Source of the DNA: Roseibium sediminicola
GTDB lineage: Bacteria; Pseudomonadota; Alphaproteobacteria; Rhizobiales; Stappiaceae
Assembly (NCBI RefSeq): GCF_023156505.1
Contig: NZ_JALNMJ010000002.1
Coordinates: 330,392-394,391, forward strand
Length of the DNA stretch: 64,000 bases
Direction: 5' to 3'
The notes under the pieces were generated by a model. The model saw nothing but the letters and a program-made list of their open reading frames with translations, searched no databases and was not told where the DNA came from. Both the position numbers and the translations under genes were made by a program. Below are positions 12,857 through 20,397 of the stretch, in pieces (the stretch's first letter is position 1; each line of letters opens with the position of its first letter).

Positions 12857-13198
12857 ATCCCGTATCCGTCAAAATGACGTTGCGTTTATTGTGATTTAGA
12901 GGGTTTTAACGGTTCTTGGTTCAAATGTCAGAGGGCGCGCAAATTAGGGGTATGCAAGCTCATGCGCGGTCAGGCCGTTGACCTGGACCATGGTAAGTTT
13001 CAAGTAAGTTTGCCGGACTAAGGTCGGTTGGCCAATCATGACGGGAAGACTGATCGCGGGGCACAGGCAATCAGTCTTATAAATTTAGACAAGCCGGGGG
13101 GCACCGGTTCGTCCAGGACAGAGACGCACGGCCGGAGAGGATAATCAGGAAGTCCCGTTGTGGGACGGTACCATTCTGTCATCAGGGCGGTTGATCCG
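12857..13198. other. intergenic region between divergent genes
   Basis: About 340 bases separate the longest form of the hydrolase gene (minus strand) from the EAL gene (plus strand). The region is less GC-rich than its neighbours and must hold both promoters, but I see no clear operator, hairpin or small gene. A GTG at 13160 extends the EAL frame by 13 codons and is judged less likely than the ATG at 13199. Confidence 0.5.
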
Positions 13199-15157
13199 AT
13201 GCGATTTGATTTTGTCTTGCGTACAGGACTTCCGGCGTTGTGTGGCGGATTTGCGCTGCTGGTTGTTCTGAATTTTCTGCTTCTTTTCCAATCCGAGTCG
13301 GAGTTGCGCCGGAAGTCGGCTCTCAAGACGGCCGTGATGGCGGATACAATGCGTTTCAGCACGTCCGAACAGGAGAAGCTGATCGCCAGGTATGCTGCTT
13401 TGCAGATTCATGAAGATGCAAAAGCGGCCAGGCAATCCTACAGGGAGCTTTTGACGGCTCTTGCCAACTGGCCGAGTGACAACTACCGGCAGGTCGTCGG
13501 CCAATCCGACTATATTGAAGAGAAGCTCGGCAACATCTTGAAAAGCAGCCAGAGGGTTCTGCCTTATCTGGACAATCTGGACGACCACACGGCAACCAGC
13601 AATGCCCTGATCATTTTGCAGGGCATCGACAGTTCTCTTCAACAAATCAACCAGATGGTTACCCAGGAGGCCGTTCGTCAGGAAGATGGCGCCCAAGCCG
13701 TCTTTCAAATGTACCAGCGCGCGCAGACCGGTCTGTTTCTCGGTTTTCTGCTTTCGGGACTTGGGTGGATCTTTTTCGAAAACAAGCGCCGCAAGGAACA
13801 GAAGCTGGAGGCGGAAACCAGTCTGGACCGTGCAGAGCAGCTGGAACACCAGCTCAGGCACGACAGCGTCACCGGCCTGATCAATCATCGCGCCTTTGAC
13901 GAAATGCTGACTTCGGCCTGGTCGGGCCTCCTGGAAGACCAGACCCTCAGCGTCTTGAGCATCGACCTGGAAACCAGACTGCCCGCGCGCAACAAGTTCA
14001 ACCAGGCAACGGAAGACGCGCTGCTGGCCTCAACGGCCGACCTGCTGCGGCATGCTGTCGACCAGCTGGAAGGCGTGACGTGCGTTGCCCGTTCGGCAGG
14101 CAAGGGGTTCTTGTTGATGGCCGTTGCCGATGAGGAGTTCGGATTGACCTCTCCTGTCGTTGCCAACCGGATCCACGACATCTTTCTGCGGCCGGTGCCA
14201 ACCGCTCTCGGGTCCTTCCTGATTTCCCCCGCCATCGGTTACGCGGACTCCAAGACGGTGGAACGCGATCCGTCGGACATTATCCGGAATGCCAATCTTG
14301 CTGTCGCAAACGCCGTCAATCACGGCCGGCGCCGCGTTGTGACCTATGAAGCGGCGATGCGCACGGAGATGGAACGCCAGACCATCGTTGAGAACGCCCT
14401 GGCGCGGGCTATTGAAGCCAATGAACTGCTGCCGCATTTCCAGCCCCAGTTCAATCTTAAGACCGGCCGGATCTTCGGGGTCGAGGCGCTGGCCCGCTGG
14501 TACCATTCGGAACTCGGCTGGATTTCCCCCTCCGAATTCATTCCGCTTGCCGAAAGGAACGGGGACATCGTTTCGCTCGGCTGGAAAATTCTGGAAACGG
14601 CCTGTTCGGAAGTCCAGTTGCTGCCGAACGAACTGACCGTCTCAGTCAACCTGTCTGTGGCCCAGATCCTGAGCGACGATGTTGTCGCCATGATGGACGA
14701 ATGCCTTGGCCGGACGGGATTGCCGGCTTCCAGGCTCAAGCTGGAAGTCACTGAAACCACGATCATGAGCGACCTCAAGCGCATACAGACAACCTTGTCC
14801 GAGATGCGTGCCCTGGGTGTCGGCATATCTCTGGACGATTTCGGCGTCGGCTATTCGGCGCTGTCCTATCTGACCGATTTCCATTGGGACGAGATCAAGA
14901 TCGACCGGTCCTTTGCCACCAAGGCGGTCAGGGACCGGAAGATCCGGGACATTTTGAAGTTGGTTCTCGGCATAGCCGAAACCATGGGATCCGATGTTCT
15001 GATCGAGGGCATCGAAACTGTGGAACAGCGCGATGTTCTGGTCGATCTCGGCTGCGCCAACGGGCAGGGCTACCTGTTCGGAGGCCCAATGGCTATCGAC
15101 GACATCACCACGCTGTTTTTCTCCGAAAACGGTCAGCGCAGCTTTGCCGGTATCTGA
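13199..15157 (+). CDS. membrane c-di-GMP phosphodiesterase with degenerate GGDEF and active-looking EAL domain
   Basis: The 652-residue protein has a TM helix near residues 10-30, a periplasmic helical region, a second TM near 185-205 and a short coiled region. A GGDEF-like domain follows that has no GGDEF signature (the site reads G-K-G-F-L-L), so cyclase activity is not expected. The C-terminal EAL domain keeps E-A-L-A-R-W, S-V-N-L-S, L-E-V-T-E-T, L-D-D-F-G-V-G-Y, I-K-I-D-R-S-F, E-G-I-E-T and G-Y-L-F-G-G-P, the metal and general-base residues. It probably hydrolyses c-di-GMP in response to a periplasmic cue. The ATG at 13199 has AGGGCGG 8 nt upstream. Confidence 0.88.
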   Translation: MRFDFVLRTGLPALCGGFALLVVLNFLLLFQSESELRRKSALKTAVMADTMRFSTSEQEKLIARYAALQIHEDAKAARQSYRELLTALANWPSDNYRQVVGQSDYIEEKLGNILKSSQRVLPYLDNLDDHTATSNALIILQGIDSSLQQINQMVTQEAVRQEDGAQAVFQMYQRAQTGLFLGFLLSGLGWIFFENKRRKEQKLEAETSLDRAEQLEHQLRHDSVTGLINHRAFDEMLTSAWSGLLEDQTLSVLSIDLETRLPARNKFNQATEDALLASTADLLRHAVDQLEGVTCVARSAGKGFLLMAVADEEFGLTSPVVANRIHDIFLRPVPTALGSFLISPAIGYADSKTVERDPSDIIRNANLAVANAVNHGRRRVVTYEAAMRTEMERQTIVENALARAIEANELLPHFQPQFNLKTGRIFGVEALARWYHSELGWISPSEFIPLAERNGDIVSLGWKILETACSEVQLLPNELTVSVNLSVAQILSDDVVAMMDECLGRTGLPASRLKLEVTETTIMSDLKRIQTTLSEMRALGVGISLDDFGVGYSALSYLTDFHWDEIKIDRSFATKAVRDRKIRDILKLVLGIAETMGSDVLIEGIETVEQRDVLVDLGCANGQGYLFGGPMAIDDITTLFFSENGQRSFAGI

Positions 15158-15163
15158 CAGACA

Positions 15164-15385
15164 TCAGTTTTTGGTCTGTTTCGCCTTCGCCGCAAAGGAC
15201 CGTCTCACTGCCAGCGCGGCAAAACCGGCCCCTAGCGCGGCGACGATCACAACGACATGGAAAGGCGATCCGAGAAAATGCTCGGATGCCGAAGTCCATC
15301 CCGTGATTTCATCATGAACCCCGGGATGGGCGAAAGCCTGCACGCTCATCAGGGCCAGACTGCAAATTGTCAGAAAGGGTTTCAT
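15164..15385 (-). CDS. 73-aa HupE-like membrane peptide, last gene of the guanidine unit
   Basis: The peptide has a signal sequence ending A-F-A, then a mature start H-P-G-V-H with further His residues, one TM helix (about 42-60) and a basic tail. The mature H-P-G motif followed by a membrane helix recalls the start of HupE/UreJ nickel permeases, but the protein is far too short to be a full transporter. Its ATG overlaps the stop of the His-rich gene by 4 nt (ATGA), so it belongs to the same operon. A role in nickel supply for the hydrolase is an inference from these His residues and the context. Confidence 0.7.
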   Translation of the reverse strand: MKPFLTICSLALMSVQAFAHPGVHDEITGWTSASEHFLGSPFHVVVIVAALGAGFAALAVRRSFAAKAKQTKN

Positions 15386-15846
15386 GCGTCGATGTCTCCA
15401 TGGCTTAGGCGGTGGGTGAGAAGCTCTATCAGGTCGATGTCCGCGCGCTCGGTCAGCGAGACATAGGTGAAGGTCATGGTTTCCCGTGCTTCGACCATCG
15501 ATCCGGGGAAGGGCATGTAAGCCAGTTCCCTGGAGGCGAAGGCGGGGGAGGCAGTGCCGACCTGCCAGTTGCTGACGATCCTGGCATCGACCAGGTGCTG
15601 GACCAGACCGTCCGGCCCGGCCTGGTGAAACGGCACACCGGCGAGCCGAAGGTAACTGGTCTTGTCGTCAGCGCCGCGAAAACCGTCTATGAAGCTTGCC
15701 GACAGGGCCTGGAGTTCTTCCGCCCGGTCGGAGGCCGACACCCCGTGTACATGGGAGTGCAGGTGGTCCGGGCCGGCATGATTGTGGTCATGGGGATGAT
15801 GATGATGGTGGTCGTGACCGCGATGATGCGAATGATCGTGGGACAT
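15382..15846 (-). CDS. small protein with long His-rich N-terminus, candidate nickel chaperone
   Basis: The 154-residue protein begins with about 35 residues in which roughly half are His, mixed with Asp, Gly and Pro, as in metal-storage tails of HypB, UreE and SlyD. The remaining 115 residues form a compact domain without Cys, signal peptide or membrane segment that I do not recognise. The ATG at 15846 has GGAGG about 10 nt upstream; a GTG at 15852 overlaps the hydrolase stop. Being coupled to a predicted nickel hydrolase, it may store or deliver Ni(II). The function is inferred, not known. Confidence 0.75.
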   Translation of the reverse strand: MSHDHSHHRGHDHHHHHPHDHNHAGPDHLHSHVHGVSASDRAEELQALSASFIDGFRGADDKTSYLRLAGVPFHQAGPDGLVQHLVDARIVSNWQVGTASPAFASRELAYMPFPGSMVEARETMTFTYVSLTERADIDLIELLTHRLSHGDIDA

Positions 15847-15848
15847 GG

Positions 15849-17087
15849 TCACGCCACCTCCGGTCCGGCGGGAATGCTCACCGGCTTGTCGATGATCGCC
15901 TTGTGCGCGCCCATCTTGCCGTGAGAGACCAGTGTACCGAGCACATCGACGATGACGCGCGTTGCCAAGAGCGCGGTAATGTCGGAACAGTCATAGGGTG
16001 GCGAAACTTCCACCACCTCGAGACCGCAAATGCCTTCTCTTGCCACCAACGACACCAGCTCCAGCGCTTCGCGCGGCAGGAATCCTCCCGGTTCCGGCCA
16101 GCCGGTACCCGGCACGAAACCGCAATCGACGCTGTCGATGTCGAAGGAGATATAGACCGCGTCGGCGTCCTTCCAGGCAAGTTCCAGGGCCCGGGCCGCC
16201 GTTTCGGCAAGGCCCAGTTCTTCAACGTCGCGCATGGTGAAGATGTTGGTGTTGCGCTCTCGGGCCACTTCGACGCCCTCGCGCGGAACCTGCCAGCCGC
16301 CGATGCCGATCTGGACCAGGTTGACCGCCGGCACATTGACCAGGTCTGTGGCATGGAACCAGGGCGTCGTGTGCATGCGCTCGTCCAGATCCTTCTCCTG
16401 AATGTCGATATGCCGGTCGAAATGAACGATGCCGATGCGCTTGGAGGTGCATTGGGCAATGCCGCGCACGCAGGGAAAGCCGATCGAATGATCGCCGCCG
16501 ATCATGATTGGCAAGGCACCGGACGAGGCCACATGGGATACGGCCCGCGTGATCTGGTCGAAGGTCTTTTCGATATTGGCCGGAATGGTGAAGATGTCGC
16601 CGACATCGCAAAGGGTCATCTGCTCGCGCAGGTCGACGCCCATCTCATAGTTATAAGGTGTATAGAGCGCGGATATTTTCCGGACGCCTTGCGGTCCAAA
16701 ACGGGTGCCGGGGCGATAGGTGGTGCCGCCGTCAAACGGAATTCCGATCACCGCGGCGTCATAGGCACCGACCTTGGTAACGTCCTCGATGTATGGCGCC
16801 TTCAGGAATGTGTTGATGCCGGCGTAGTGCGGCAGCTCGCCGCGCGCAAAGGTCGGAATGGACTTGTCGGTCAGACTGTCCGAGCCGGTCAGTCCCATCC
16901 GCAGTGCCCAGGCCTTTTCCTTTTCCCAGGCGGCTGAAGGCAGGGCGCCTTCCTTCTCGGCGGCTTTCCAGCCACGCAACTGCAGTTTGTCGAAATCCGG
17001 ATGGTGTTGCCGTCGCGGCTGCATCCGCAGCACCGGGCCGGCTGCTCTGTGCCGGGTTGCGGGACCTGAGGAAAAAATCTTTGTCAT
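15849..17087 (-). CDS. gdmH: GdmH-like guanidine hydrolase, ureohydrolase family
   Basis: The 412-residue ureohydrolase (arginase/agmatinase fold) has an N-terminal extension of about 100 residues absent from agmatinases. Metal ligands are His200 (G-G-D-H-S), Asp224, His226 and Asp228 (F-D-R-H-I-D), and Asp316 and Asp318 (F-D-I-D). Arg replaces the usual Ala in the F-D-A-H-x-D motif, and the loop reads P-G-T-G-W-P-E-P-G-G. Both features, and the extension, agree with my memory of the Ni-dependent guanidine hydrolase of cyanobacteria (Sll1077), which converts guanidine to urea and ammonia. Context (ykkC riboswitch, transporter) supports this strongly. The ATG at 17087 follows GAGG; an ATG at 17099 overlaps the ATPase stop. 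Confidence 0.85.
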   Translation of the reverse strand: MTKIFSSGPATRHRAAGPVLRMQPRRQHHPDFDKLQLRGWKAAEKEGALPSAAWEKEKAWALRMGLTGSDSLTDKSIPTFARGELPHYAGINTFLKAPYIEDVTKVGAYDAAVIGIPFDGGTTYRPGTRFGPQGVRKISALYTPYNYEMGVDLREQMTLCDVGDIFTIPANIEKTFDQITRAVSHVASSGALPIMIGGDHSIGFPCVRGIAQCTSKRIGIVHFDRHIDIQEKDLDERMHTTPWFHATDLVNVPAVNLVQIGIGGWQVPREGVEVARERNTNIFTMRDVEELGLAETAARALELAWKDADAVYISFDIDSVDCGFVPGTGWPEPGGFLPREALELVSLVAREGICGLEVVEVSPPYDCSDITALLATRVIVDVLGTLVSHGKMGAHKAIIDKPVSIPAGPEVA

Positions 17088-17095
17088 GGGGGACC

Positions 17096-17917
17096 TCATG
17101 AGGCGTTGCTGTTTGAAAACTGATTTTGCGGATCGATGGCAGGAGCGCCGATCACACCGGCGATGTCTTCGGGACTGCGCGCCGCGCCCGGAGAATCCAG
17201 CGGCAGGTCGTAGGTGATCGTGGCACCATAGGCCTGCGGGGCCTGCGGATCGTGCCGGACCTTGTCAAACACCAGGAGACGCGTGCCGAGCTTGAAAGCT
17301 TCGTGAATGTCATGTGTGACCATGAAAATGGTCATGCCGAGATCCTGCCAGAGCCCGAGCAACAGGTCGTGCATGTCGACCCGGATGCCCGGATCCAGCG
17401 CACCGAACGGTTCGTCGAGCAGCAGAATGCCGGGTTTTTTGATCAATGCCTGGGCTATGGCAAGACGCTGCTGCATGCCGCCGGAAAGCTGCACCGGATA
17501 TTTGTTCGCAGCCGCCTTCAGACCGATGCGTTCGAGCAGGCCGTCAATGTCGGCAAAGGCGGATTTGCGGGCGCTTGCGAACAAGCGGCCGGTCCAGGGG
17601 GCGGCCTCAAACTCGCTGGCCAGGATCAGATTTTCAGCGACAGTCAGGTGCGAAAACACCGAATATTTCTGAAAGACGATGCCGCGATCCGGCGTCGGCT
17701 CGTCGGGCAGGGGGCGTCCGTCCAGCAGGATGCGGCCCCGGCTGGGCAGTTCCTGCGAGAGCAGCATGCGCAAAAAAGTGGACTTGCCACAGCCGGACGC
17801 GCCGACAATGGTGCAGAACGAACCGGCGGCAACATCGAGATCGACCCGCTCCAGCACCGGCAGCCCGTCATAGGATTTGGTCAGGCCCTGTACGGAGAGT
17901 TTCGGCGTGTCACTCAT
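17096..17917 (-). CDS. ATPase of the guanidine-associated ABC transporter
   Basis: The 273-residue NitT/TauT-family ATPase has Walker [10 protein letters not shown], signature L-S-G-G-M-Q-Q-R, Walker [12 protein letters not shown] and the switch His in V-T-H-D. The C-terminal tail after the H-loop includes a Y-D-L-P-L-D segment typical of the urea-carboxylase-associated branch. Its start overlaps the permease stop by 4 nt (ATGA). An upstream in-frame start at 17944 would lie inside the permease gene and has no support. It powers import of what is probably guanidine. Confidence 0.88.
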
Positions 17918-18735
17918 AGCGCGTCCACTCCCTGATGCGCCCACCGGAACAGCCGGCGAGAGGCTTGCAAAAGCAGAAGGTCAAGCAGGAACCCGAGCAG
18001 TGTGATCCAGACAACGTAGGGCAGGATCACGTCCATCGCGAGATAGCGCCGCACAAGGAAGATCCGATAGCCGAGACCGGAAGTGGACGCGATTGCCTCA
18101 GCGGATATCAGGAAGATCCAGGCCGGCACGAGCCCGAGACGGAGCGCGGTGATCAGTCTGGGGAGGAGCTGCGGCAAAACAAGTCGCGTCACCATCTGCC
18201 AGACCGAAGCGCCGAGCGTTTCCGCCTTGATGATCATTTCCCGGGGAATGTCGAGCACGGCCTGGGCCATGGACCGGATCATCACCGGAGCGGTGCCGAT
18301 AACGATCAGCGCGATCTTGGCGAGTTCACCGAGCCCGAAGGTGATGAACAGGATCGGCAGGATGGTGATCGGCGGGATCAGCGAAAACGTGGCGAGATAG
18401 GGTGCGAGCGCACTTCGCACATGGGGAATAAAGCCGATGGCGATGCCAAGAGACAGCGCCAGCACCGTCGAGACGGCCATGCCGGTGCCGAGGCGCCAGA
18501 GACTGTCAAACGTGTCGAGCCAGAGCAGCAGATCGCCGGAGCGCCGGTCAGGCACGGTTGCCATGCGCCAGAACGCGGCCGCCATGCTGTCCAGCGAGGG
18601 CAGCAGCTTGTCCGCAGGGTTGTCGAGCCGCCGGTAATGGCTGGCAACCGAGTAGGCGATCACGGTGGCCGCGAAGGGCAGCAGCCCCAGTGCCAAGGCC
18701 GTGAGCCTGGACGGTTTCCGGTTGATGATGCGCAT
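17914..18735 (-). CDS. permease of the guanidine-associated ABC transporter
   Basis: The 273-residue BPD_transp_1 permease of the NitT/TauT type has six or so hydrophobic helices and the cytoplasmic EAA-like loop E-T-L-G-A-S-V-W-Q. The ATG at 18735 is preceded by AGAGGCGG and starts directly before the first helix; the frame is open further upstream, but that part is not hydrophobic. A single permease gene implies a homodimeric channel. It lies between the binding-protein gene (69 nt upstream) and the ATPase gene. Confidence 0.87.
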   Translation of the reverse strand: MRIINRKPSRLTALALGLLPFAATVIAYSVASHYRRLDNPADKLLPSLDSMAAAFWRMATVPDRRSGDLLLWLDTFDSLWRLGTGMAVSTVLALSLGIAIGFIPHVRSALAPYLATFSLIPPITILPILFITFGLGELAKIALIVIGTAPVMIRSMAQAVLDIPREMIIKAETLGASVWQMVTRLVLPQLLPRLITALRLGLVPAWIFLISAEAIASTSGLGYRIFLVRRYLAMDVILPYVVWITLLGFLLDLLLLQASRRLFRWAHQGVDAL

Positions 18736-18804
18736 GAAGGTGGTCCGCCTCTGGAAAGTGGCCCGGCACTCCAGGCGCCGGGCCAGGGAAATCAAGGTCG
18801 GAAA

Positions 18805-19875
18805 TCAGAGCGTGCCGTCTGCCGCCATGGTCATGAAACTGGGGTCGAATTTAAGCTTCACATTGGCCGCGTCGCCGTAAACAGAGCCGTCCGGGAAGGA
18901 AACGCCAACAAATTCCGGGCTTGGAGCGCCTTCGCCGAGAATGCCTTTTTCAAACAGGAATTCGGCAACGAACTTCATGGTCTTCGGCATCTCCGCGGAT
19001 TTGGTGAAGGCTACCGCGTCTTCGGGCGTGAAGAACATCTTGGTGGTGGCGAGCTGGGCGTCGTAACCGGCCAGGTCCGTTCCCGACGCTTCCGCCATGG
19101 CAGTGCGCGCGGCGACACCTTCATCGCTGTCGGAGGACATGATCGCCATCAACTCGTACCAGGCGCCGGTCAAAGCCTTGCCGAAATCCGGGTTGTCGGC
19201 GAGTGTCTCGGTATTGACCATCATGATATCGATGATCTCACCCGGAATGCCGGCGCTGTCGAACACCTTGGTAGCATTCGGCTGGGCCTCGATCTCCGAC
19301 AGAAGCGGGTTCCAGGTGACAACGGCCGTCACGTCATCTGTCTGGTAAGCCGCGATCATGTCGGCGTCGGACGTGTTGACGACGGTCAGGTCCTGTTCGC
19401 TAAGGCCAACCGTATCAAGGGCGCGGGCCAGCAGGTAATGGGAGACGGACAATTCCACCAGATTGACGGTCTGTCCCTTGATGTCGGCAAGCTCGGTCTT
19501 GTCCTTCAGGATGATGCCGTCATTGCCGTTGGAATAGTCCCCGACGATCAGAGCGGTGGTGTCGACACCGCCGCCGGCAGGGATCGAGAGGGCGTCCATA
19601 TTGGTCATGGAACAGCCGTCATATTCGCCGGCCGTGTACTGGTTGATGGATTCGACATAGTCGTTGATCTGCACGATCTCGACGCTGATGCCGTATTTGT
19701 CTGCCCATTTTTTCATGAGCCCGCTGTCCTGCAGATAGCCCCAGGGCATCCAGCCGACATAGATCGACCAGCAGACCTTGAAGTCCGTTTTGACTTCGGC
19801 TTTGGCGGGGGTAAGGGACAGCGGCAAGCTTAGCGCTGCGGCGAGGAGGGTGGCTTTGGCAATCGATTTCAGCAT
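18805..19875 (-). CDS. periplasmic binding protein of the guanidine-associated ABC transporter
   Basis: The 356-residue protein has a signal peptide cleaved after A-K-A near residue 26. The mature N-terminus, K-T-D-F-K-V-C-W-S-I-Y-V-G-W-M-P-W, matches the group usually annotated as putative urea ABC transporter substrate-binding protein of the urea-carboxylase region. That region is now understood as guanidine carboxylase, which makes guanidine the likely ligand. It is the first gene after the riboswitch. The ATG at 19875 follows AGGAGA with 9-nt spacing. Confidence 0.88.
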   Translation of the reverse strand: MLKSIAKATLLAAALSLPLSLTPAKAEVKTDFKVCWSIYVGWMPWGYLQDSGLMKKWADKYGISVEIVQINDYVESINQYTAGEYDGCSMTNMDALSIPAGGGVDTTALIVGDYSNGNDGIILKDKTELADIKGQTVNLVELSVSHYLLARALDTVGLSEQDLTVVNTSDADMIAAYQTDDVTAVVTWNPLLSEIEAQPNATKVFDSAGIPGEIIDIMMVNTETLADNPDFGKALTGAWYELMAIMSSDSDEGVAARTAMAEASGTDLAGYDAQLATTKMFFTPEDAVAFTKSAEMPKTMKFVAEFLFEKGILGEGAPSPEFVGVSFPDGSVYGDAANVKLKFDPSFMTMAADGTL

Positions 19876-19977
19876 CTGTGCGCGTCTCCTGTCTTGGGCC
19901 GAACCCTTATCGGTCCGACGTCCGTCATGAGATTTCTGCGCACGTCCGGGAGCCAGGTTCGCGCGCGCGAAACCTCG

Positions 19978-20100
19978 TGCAGTTGTCTCCCGGGTTTTTG
20001 TCCCGCCGTGTCACCGGCCTATCTGGGCATGGCGCCCTTGTGACCGGCTTGCACCTCTCGGTCCTGTGTCGTTGCCGACCGGATCCCTAGGCGCGCTGCA
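19978..20100 (-). promoter_or_regulatory. guanidine-I (ykkC) riboswitch
   Basis: Read on the minus strand, the leader contains the ykkC core in order: CTAGGGATCCGG, a variable hairpin, GGACCGAGAGGT (20064-20053), a long imperfect helix, then ACACGGCGGGAC (20011-20000), an A-run, and CCCGGGAGA (19994-19986). TGCAG at 20100-20096 can pair with CTGCA at 19982-19978 to close the aptamer. Downstream, GGCTCCCGG (19954-19946) is complementary to the terminal CCGGGAG and could form an alternative helix. The core is that of the guanidine-sensing class. It precedes the transporter and hydrolase genes and should turn them on when guanidine is present. Confidence 0.9.
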
Positions 20101-20397
20101 CTCCATCAAACAAAGCAAGGGAGGTGCCAAAATGCCTCATGGAGAATTAGACGCATTAAAAACAGCGATTTGATGGGGTTGGTTTAAGTATAGAATTAGC
20201 AGCAAGCAGCCTTTTGACTGGGAATTGATCAAAAACCGGGCATGAGTGAACAATAGACAGTCATGCCTGCCGATCCTGTGTAGCGATGAGGAGAATGTTG
20301 CCGCATCAATCGCATGGCGCTGACTGCAGAATTCGCCTTTGGACTTGGTCAACTCAAGGTATATTATGCAAAATTATTGAACCGTGAGGTTAGCGCC
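20101..20397. other. divergent intergenic region
   Basis: The 297 bases between the riboswitch and the endonuclease-family gene are clearly more AT-rich than their surroundings and must carry the promoters for both directions. I see no gene and no strong palindrome. A plus-strand frame from 20314 merely extends the following gene upstream. Confidence 0.5.

Follow-up and report, generated by a model that had tools for sequence, protein, structure and literature searches.

A predicted guanidine uptake and hydrolysis operon in Roseibium sediminicola pairs the gene of the guanidine hydrolase with that of a histidine-rich candidate nickel-delivery protein

The stretch of DNA analysed here (the window; 64,000 nucleotides) corresponds to positions 330392-394391 of contig NZ_JALNMJ010000002.1 in the 6.3 Mb genome of Roseibium sediminicola. 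Its minus strand, read from 20101 to 15164, carries a predicted guanidine-I riboswitch aptamer followed by genes encoding the binding protein, permease and ATPase of an ABC importer, a ureohydrolase predicted to be a guanidine hydrolase (GdmH), a histidine-rich protein and a protein of 73 residues. Operons that join guanidine uptake and hydrolysis under guanidine-I control have been published before, in cyanobacteria as well as in other organisms, and the present one is therefore of a known kind (PMC8390497, PMC12186494); what appears to be new about it is the histidine-rich partner, here termed GAP (gdmH-associated protein). The last two genes, at 15846-15382 and 15385-15164, had been left undescribed in an earlier account of 15164..20100 made from the letters alone (hereafter the sequence-only reading). 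The features are as follows.

19985..20101, minus strand: predicted guanidine-I (ykkC subtype 1) riboswitch aptamer (RF00442 positions 1-107, 60.1 bits, E value 3.4e-10)
19946..19952, minus strand: CUCCCGG, complement of the P3 strand, tentatively a possible part of the expression platform (7-nucleotide complementarity)
18805..19875, minus strand: ABC substrate-binding protein, 356 residues, predicted guanidine importer subunit (TIGR03427)
17914..18735, minus strand: ABC permease (PF00528, 70.4 bits; TauC-like)
17096..17917, minus strand: ABC ATPase (PF00005, 109.5 bits)
15849..17087, minus strand: predicted gdmH-type guanidine hydrolase, 412 residues, or 416 residues with an ATG start at 17099 (structure-database scores, tree, residues)
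15382..15846, minus strand: GAP, histidine-rich gdmH-associated protein, 154 residues, or 156 residues with a GTG start at 15852 (gene position; 704 relatives)
15164..15385, minus strand: 73-residue AHPG protein, its start overlapping the GAP stop

The permease gene starts 69 bases past the binding-protein gene, and each gene from the permease onward overlaps the next or lies at most 10 bases from it, so that the operon genes likely share a single transcript. The GAP gene begins 2 bases past gdmH; with the alternative GTG start at 15852, the two would overlap. The locus was compared with 80 named loci, the best 80 of 554 relatives and thus a sample favouring close kin, among which those of Stappia sp. 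BW2 and Roseibium were the nearest; riboswitch searches covered 49 of the 80, and whole-genome searches for HypA and urease covered 50. Permease and ATPase genes were found in front of gdmH at every named locus, and the binding-protein gene at 79 of them, the operon being cut at the remaining one (L040). GAP was found behind gdmH in 80/80, starting at most 40 bases from the gdmH end in 78 and at 79 and 437 bases in the other two.

The same pairing was seen in broader samples. Among 385 genomes of the class, 13 encoded a gdmH-like gene; 11 of these were at least 75% identical, and all 11 were accompanied by GAP. The remaining two were L016 (57% identity), which had no GAP, and L015 (56%), which runs off its contig and could not be judged. 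In the reverse search, a GAP match at an E value of 0.01 was obtained in 16 of the 385 genomes, namely the 11 with gdmH, two with a strong match and no gdmH, and three with weak matches (E values 2e-4 to 4e-3), of which the one inspected (L118) looks unrelated. Both strong matches are GAP remnants: in L116:5408-7032, the GAP frame is overlapped by an incomplete binding-protein frame, and L117:6119-6361 is a C-terminal GAP fragment adjoining unrelated genes. The phylum sample (398 genomes) contained gdmH at an E value of 1e-90 in seven genomes, all from the same class and two of them also present in the class sample, and GAP was found in all seven. The gdmH-GAP pairing is fixed in the alphaproteobacterial loci examined.

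In GAP, a histidine-rich N-terminus is joined to a core of roughly 110 residues. The protein gave no Pfam match above chance and no NCBIfam match; homology to HypA (PF01155) or HypB was not found in Pfam, where only a sub-threshold match to ZrgA appeared (E value 0.31), and nine family members scanned at an E value of 1 matched no Pfam family. Relatives are numerous, with 704 recovered at E values of at most 0.01 among 758 candidates, and are named hypothetical or uncharacterized proteins among the 120 matches listed. The core was predicted to fold with a mean pLDDT (predicted local distance difference test) of 93.9, and found no useful match among solved structures. At least 8 histidines were counted in the GAP of 77 of the 80 named loci (median 18.5); in L056, the histidine run sits at the C-terminus. 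No mention of a GAP-like protein turned up in searches of an open-licence library, and such a protein may well have been published elsewhere.

Genes for such enzymes, found in a wide range of microorganisms, are reported to share an operon in many cases with hypA, hypB and three transporter genes (PMC8390497), and the scheme for Synechocystis places GdmH in one riboswitch-bearing operon together with nickel-delivery proteins and an ABC importer (PMC12186494). The operon of Synechocystis sp. PCC 6803 (sll1077 as gdmH, hypA/hypB-type genes, sll1080-sll1082 for the ABC importer; guanidine-I control) has the same riboswitch class, importer type and GdmH clade as the window (PMC8390497, PMC12186494), but in the window, GAP and the 73-residue gene take the place of the nickel chaperone genes found in the cyanobacterial operon. 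GdmH has been described as activated by nickel chaperones, and the activation of metformin hydrolase depended on HypA and HypB (PMC11399263). Operons of the latter enzyme, MefH, contain hypA, hypB and hupE and thus encode a nickel ureohydrolase together with nickel proteins (PMC11399263), as proposed for the window; MefH itself has two subunits, belongs to a different branch of the ureohydrolases (130-141 bits when compared to the window protein) and has HypA/HypB as chaperones. The Nitrospira inopinata locus resembles the window in its guanidine-I leader and GdmH clade and is described as having no HypA/HypB; the comammox loci encode an APC permease where the window encodes an ABC importer. 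Nickel loading of the comammox enzyme is called unclear in that account since chaperones were not found, and GAP receives no mention in its examined parts (PMC11410670).

HypA was likewise not found at any of the 80 named loci at an E value of 1, and a HypB-like gene appeared at one only (L069; 41 bits, roughly 4 kb away from gdmH on the opposite strand). HypA was missing from 27 of the 50 whole genomes. The fixed place of GAP beside a likely nickel enzyme, in the position otherwise held by nickel chaperones, and its movable histidine tail make nickel delivery the most likely role of this protein, which would thus supply GdmH in place of HypA/HypB, the tail binding nickel and the core docking on the enzyme, as the anatomy of the protein suggests. 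On linkage and tail together, we regard GAP as a candidate nickel-delivery protein replacing HypA/HypB, at even odds. The broader proposal that GAP is the first member of a nickel-delivery family, a one-protein substitute for HypA/HypB in guanidine hydrolase maturation that arose at the base of the alphaproteobacterial clade and whose tail collects nickel while the core docks, is tentative and falls somewhat short of even. In the 25-row enzyme tree described below, 16 GAP-bearing enzymes form one side of a 100/99 branch. For the complete statement, i.e. a guanidine-I operon with importer and nickel hydrolase in which GAP delivers nickel instead of HypA/HypB, our estimate is roughly 55%.

Several observations weigh against nickel delivery by GAP. 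HypA is encoded elsewhere in 23 of the 50 genomes, although none of the matches listed lies near the gdmH locus, and the source genome holds a single HypA, on another contig and, as judged by eye, beside hydrogenase maturation genes. Urease in all 50 genomes implies that other nickel machinery is at hand. For the guanidinase of N. inopinata no chaperone is known, and yet the protein was active, with partial nickel, when produced in E. coli (PMC11410670), which suggests that a chaperone may be dispensable. Histidines are few in some GAPs (1 in L013, 4 in L007 and 5 in L008) and the core has no conserved histidine or cysteine, so that nickel binding alone cannot account for the role of GAP, and docking or another action on GdmH must also be involved.

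GAP could instead store or buffer nickel or zinc and be merely co-regulated with the guanidinase, with GdmH receiving its nickel from general HypA/HypB or urease accessory proteins. The presence of urease in 50/50 relatives and of HypA elsewhere in the source genome and in 23/50 relatives would be in line with such a supply, and a tail varying in both length and place would suit a store; a store would nevertheless need neither the conserved core (about 110 residues) nor so strict a linkage to gdmH, and some members are nearly devoid of histidine. We therefore consider this doubtful. The one-to-one linkage directly behind gdmH, the core lacking conserved histidine and cysteine and the histidine-poor members would also be compatible with GAP regulating the GdmH hexamer or forming a small subunit of it, in which case the tail would be incidental. 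This is unlikely, as both Sll1077 and the N. inopinata GdmH have been described as one-protein hexamers (PMC11410670) and at least 8 histidines are present in 77/80 GAPs.

If nickel delivery by GAP is correct, the protein would explain a working guanidinase in the genomes without HypA (27/50). The GAP family, whose genes are linked to gdmH in rhodobacterial and rhizobial genomes as well as in Roseibium and Thalassospira, is a candidate for the nickel supply of guanidinases, and many marine and soil alphaproteobacteria in which the hydrolase gene is labelled agmatinase would join the likely guanidine users.

The ureohydrolase was compared to solved structures and scored 544 bits against Sll1077 (7esr, 7oi1) and 531 bits against the N. 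inopinata guanidinase (9fek), the next match reaching 177; apart from these two enzymes, chains carrying an agmatinase label reached at most 133.4 bits among the 60 solved chains listed. In a 25-row tree, whose outside rows were guanidinobutyrase and proclavaminate amidinohydrolase and which had no agmatinase row, the enzyme grouped with Sll1077 and the N. inopinata GdmH, separated from the outside rows by a 100/100 branch. The guanidine specificity of Sll1077 depends on a threonine and a tryptophan, with two further residues listed (PMC11410670); by alignment, these correspond to T127 and W334, and to H243 and E364. The dimetal residues (H204, D228, H230, D232, D320 and D322) align with both reference guanidinases. 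The N-terminal extension and the F-D-R-H-I-D motif pointed out in the sequence-only reading are present whether translation starts at ATG 17087 (412 residues) or ATG 17099 (416 residues), the motif forming residues 227-232 of the longer form. HFDRHxD was found in 80/80 named loci and the exact string PGTGWPEPGG in 79/80. FDRH is common to Sll1077 and the N. inopinata GdmH, but is also found in L016 and L107, which have threonine in place of the specificity tryptophan, and the motif alone is thus no proof of guanidine specificity.

Taken together, the tree and the structure scores (544 and 531 bits compared to at most 133.4 bits for agmatinase-labelled chains) bear out the earlier assignment as a guanidine hydrolase rather than an agmatinase or guanidinobutyrase, and no grouping with the latter was seen; the enzyme is likely a guanidine hydrolase, with guanidine as substrate and nickel as metal by analogy with its named relatives. 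Another guanidino compound, e.g. agmatine or methylguanidine, is an improbable in vivo substrate. The agmatinase label in databases, a score of 172.1 bits against the agmatinase equivalog TIGR01230, just below its cut-off of 174.3, and a 2-oxoglutarate/Fe(II) dioxygenase gene within the operon in 3/80 loci would favour it, but the enzyme belongs to the guanidinase clade, keeps the threonine/tryptophan pair and stands behind a guanidine-I leader, and the product of a demethylase acting on methylguanidine would be guanidine (PMC12508155), fitting a guanidinase.

Two GdmH-like types without GAP were encountered. The enzymes of L016:1456-2661 (also found in L119) and L107, with FDRH and threonine for tryptophan, possibly act on another substrate. 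On a Rubrobacter indicoceani plasmid (L104:6470-13887), a GdmH-like gene keeping both threonine and tryptophan adjoins formamidase and urease genes, with neither GAP nor HypA. The dioxygenase genes mentioned above lie between the binding-protein and permease genes (L018:4529-6353, L027:4469-6353 and L033:5186-6370) and matched PF14226/PF03171 in both loci scanned, L018 and L033; L018 and L027 encode an additional second protein beside the dioxygenase, which had no Pfam match where scanned (L018). In type and place, the dioxygenase and second-protein genes resemble those of MgdH/MgdL, which are known from carboxylase operons as a pair that demethylates methylguanidine (PMC12508155); the genes seen here are joined to a guanidinase operon.

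The binding protein belongs to TIGR03427, with 563.1 bits compared to a curated cut-off of 333.9, and is followed by the permease and ATPase genes, in agreement with the ABC transporter of the urea-carboxylase-region type recognised in the sequence-only reading. A urease alpha subunit is encoded in the source genome (974.6 bits) and in all 50 relatives searched (49 over the cut-off), while no urea or guanidine carboxylase exceeded the family cut-off in the source genome, the best match reaching 563 of 1303.85 bits and covering the first 440 positions only. Very probably, the aptamer would turn the operon on when guanidine is present, the ABC importer would take guanidine up, and the likely nickel-dependent hydrolase would split it into urea and ammonia; by analogy with named relatives, the urea would be handed to urease and yield ammonia. 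The sequence data thus agree with the earlier proposals that uptake and hydrolysis to urea plus ammonia are combined in one alphaproteobacterial operon, and that guanidine would serve as nitrogen source without carboxylase. Guanidine carboxylase operons of Pseudomonas and enterobacteria share guanidine-I control and an ABC importer with the window (PMC12186494); in contrast, they represent an ATP-dependent route.

The leader aligned with RF00442 from end to end, confirming the ykkC core that had been noted there by eye. The score counts against the assignment, being 2.9 bits below the gathering score of 63, and for this reason the aptamer is missing from a gathering-threshold scan. Leaders at the same place in relatives scored from 41 to 97 bits; a match was found in 48 of the 49 genomes searched (45 over the cut-off), and lay directly upstream of the binding-protein gene in 47 of the 49. 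L047 gave no RF00442 match, and in L040, where the contig ends within the operon, the match sits on another stretch. At the subtype-diagnostic nucleotide, A denotes guanidine-I and a pyrimidine the guanosine tetraphosphate (ppGpp) and phosphoribosyl pyrophosphate (PRPP) types (PMC6031431). The window leader reads CCGAGAG, with A at both candidate diagnostic positions, which of the two is the numbered one not being fixed; CC[GA]AGA is retained in 47/48 leaders, with L056 as the exception. The full-length alignment and these nucleotides support the proposed guanidine-I class, with guanidine as the ligand predicted from named relatives. That the leader is a ykkC-fold variant for ppGpp or PRPP might be suggested by the sub-threshold score and by a 6-bp closing helix joining the aptamer ends (GUGCAG/CUGCAC), such a helix having been described in riboswitches of the PRPP type (PMC6031431), but is highly improbable given the A rather than a pyrimidine in the window and in 47/48 leaders, the gene context, and a closing helix that barely beats permuted pairs (mean 4.96 compared to 4.52; highest of 300 permutations 4.81). 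Downstream, the P3 strand CCGGGAG (19987-19993) is complementary over 7 nucleotides to CUCCCGG (19946-19952), which was equalled by 3 of 100 shuffles, and a downstream complement of at least 7 nucleotides was found in 24/47 relatives; this segment is tentatively a possible part of the expression platform.

The 73-residue protein has an apparent signal peptide, an AHPG motif and one hydrophobic stretch. By motif search, a similar gene lies behind GAP in 10/80 named loci, 8 of which belong, by record titles, to Roseibium or Stappia-group and Kiloniella-like genomes. The operon of L040, from a bin labelled Anaerolineae, is 80% identical and in the tree lies within the alphaproteobacterial clade, which points to a mis-binned contig or a transfer. 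On the plus strand of the window, a 665-residue protein (13160-15157), GGDEF/EAL-like by eye, is encoded convergently, its gene stopping 6 bases short of the last operon gene.

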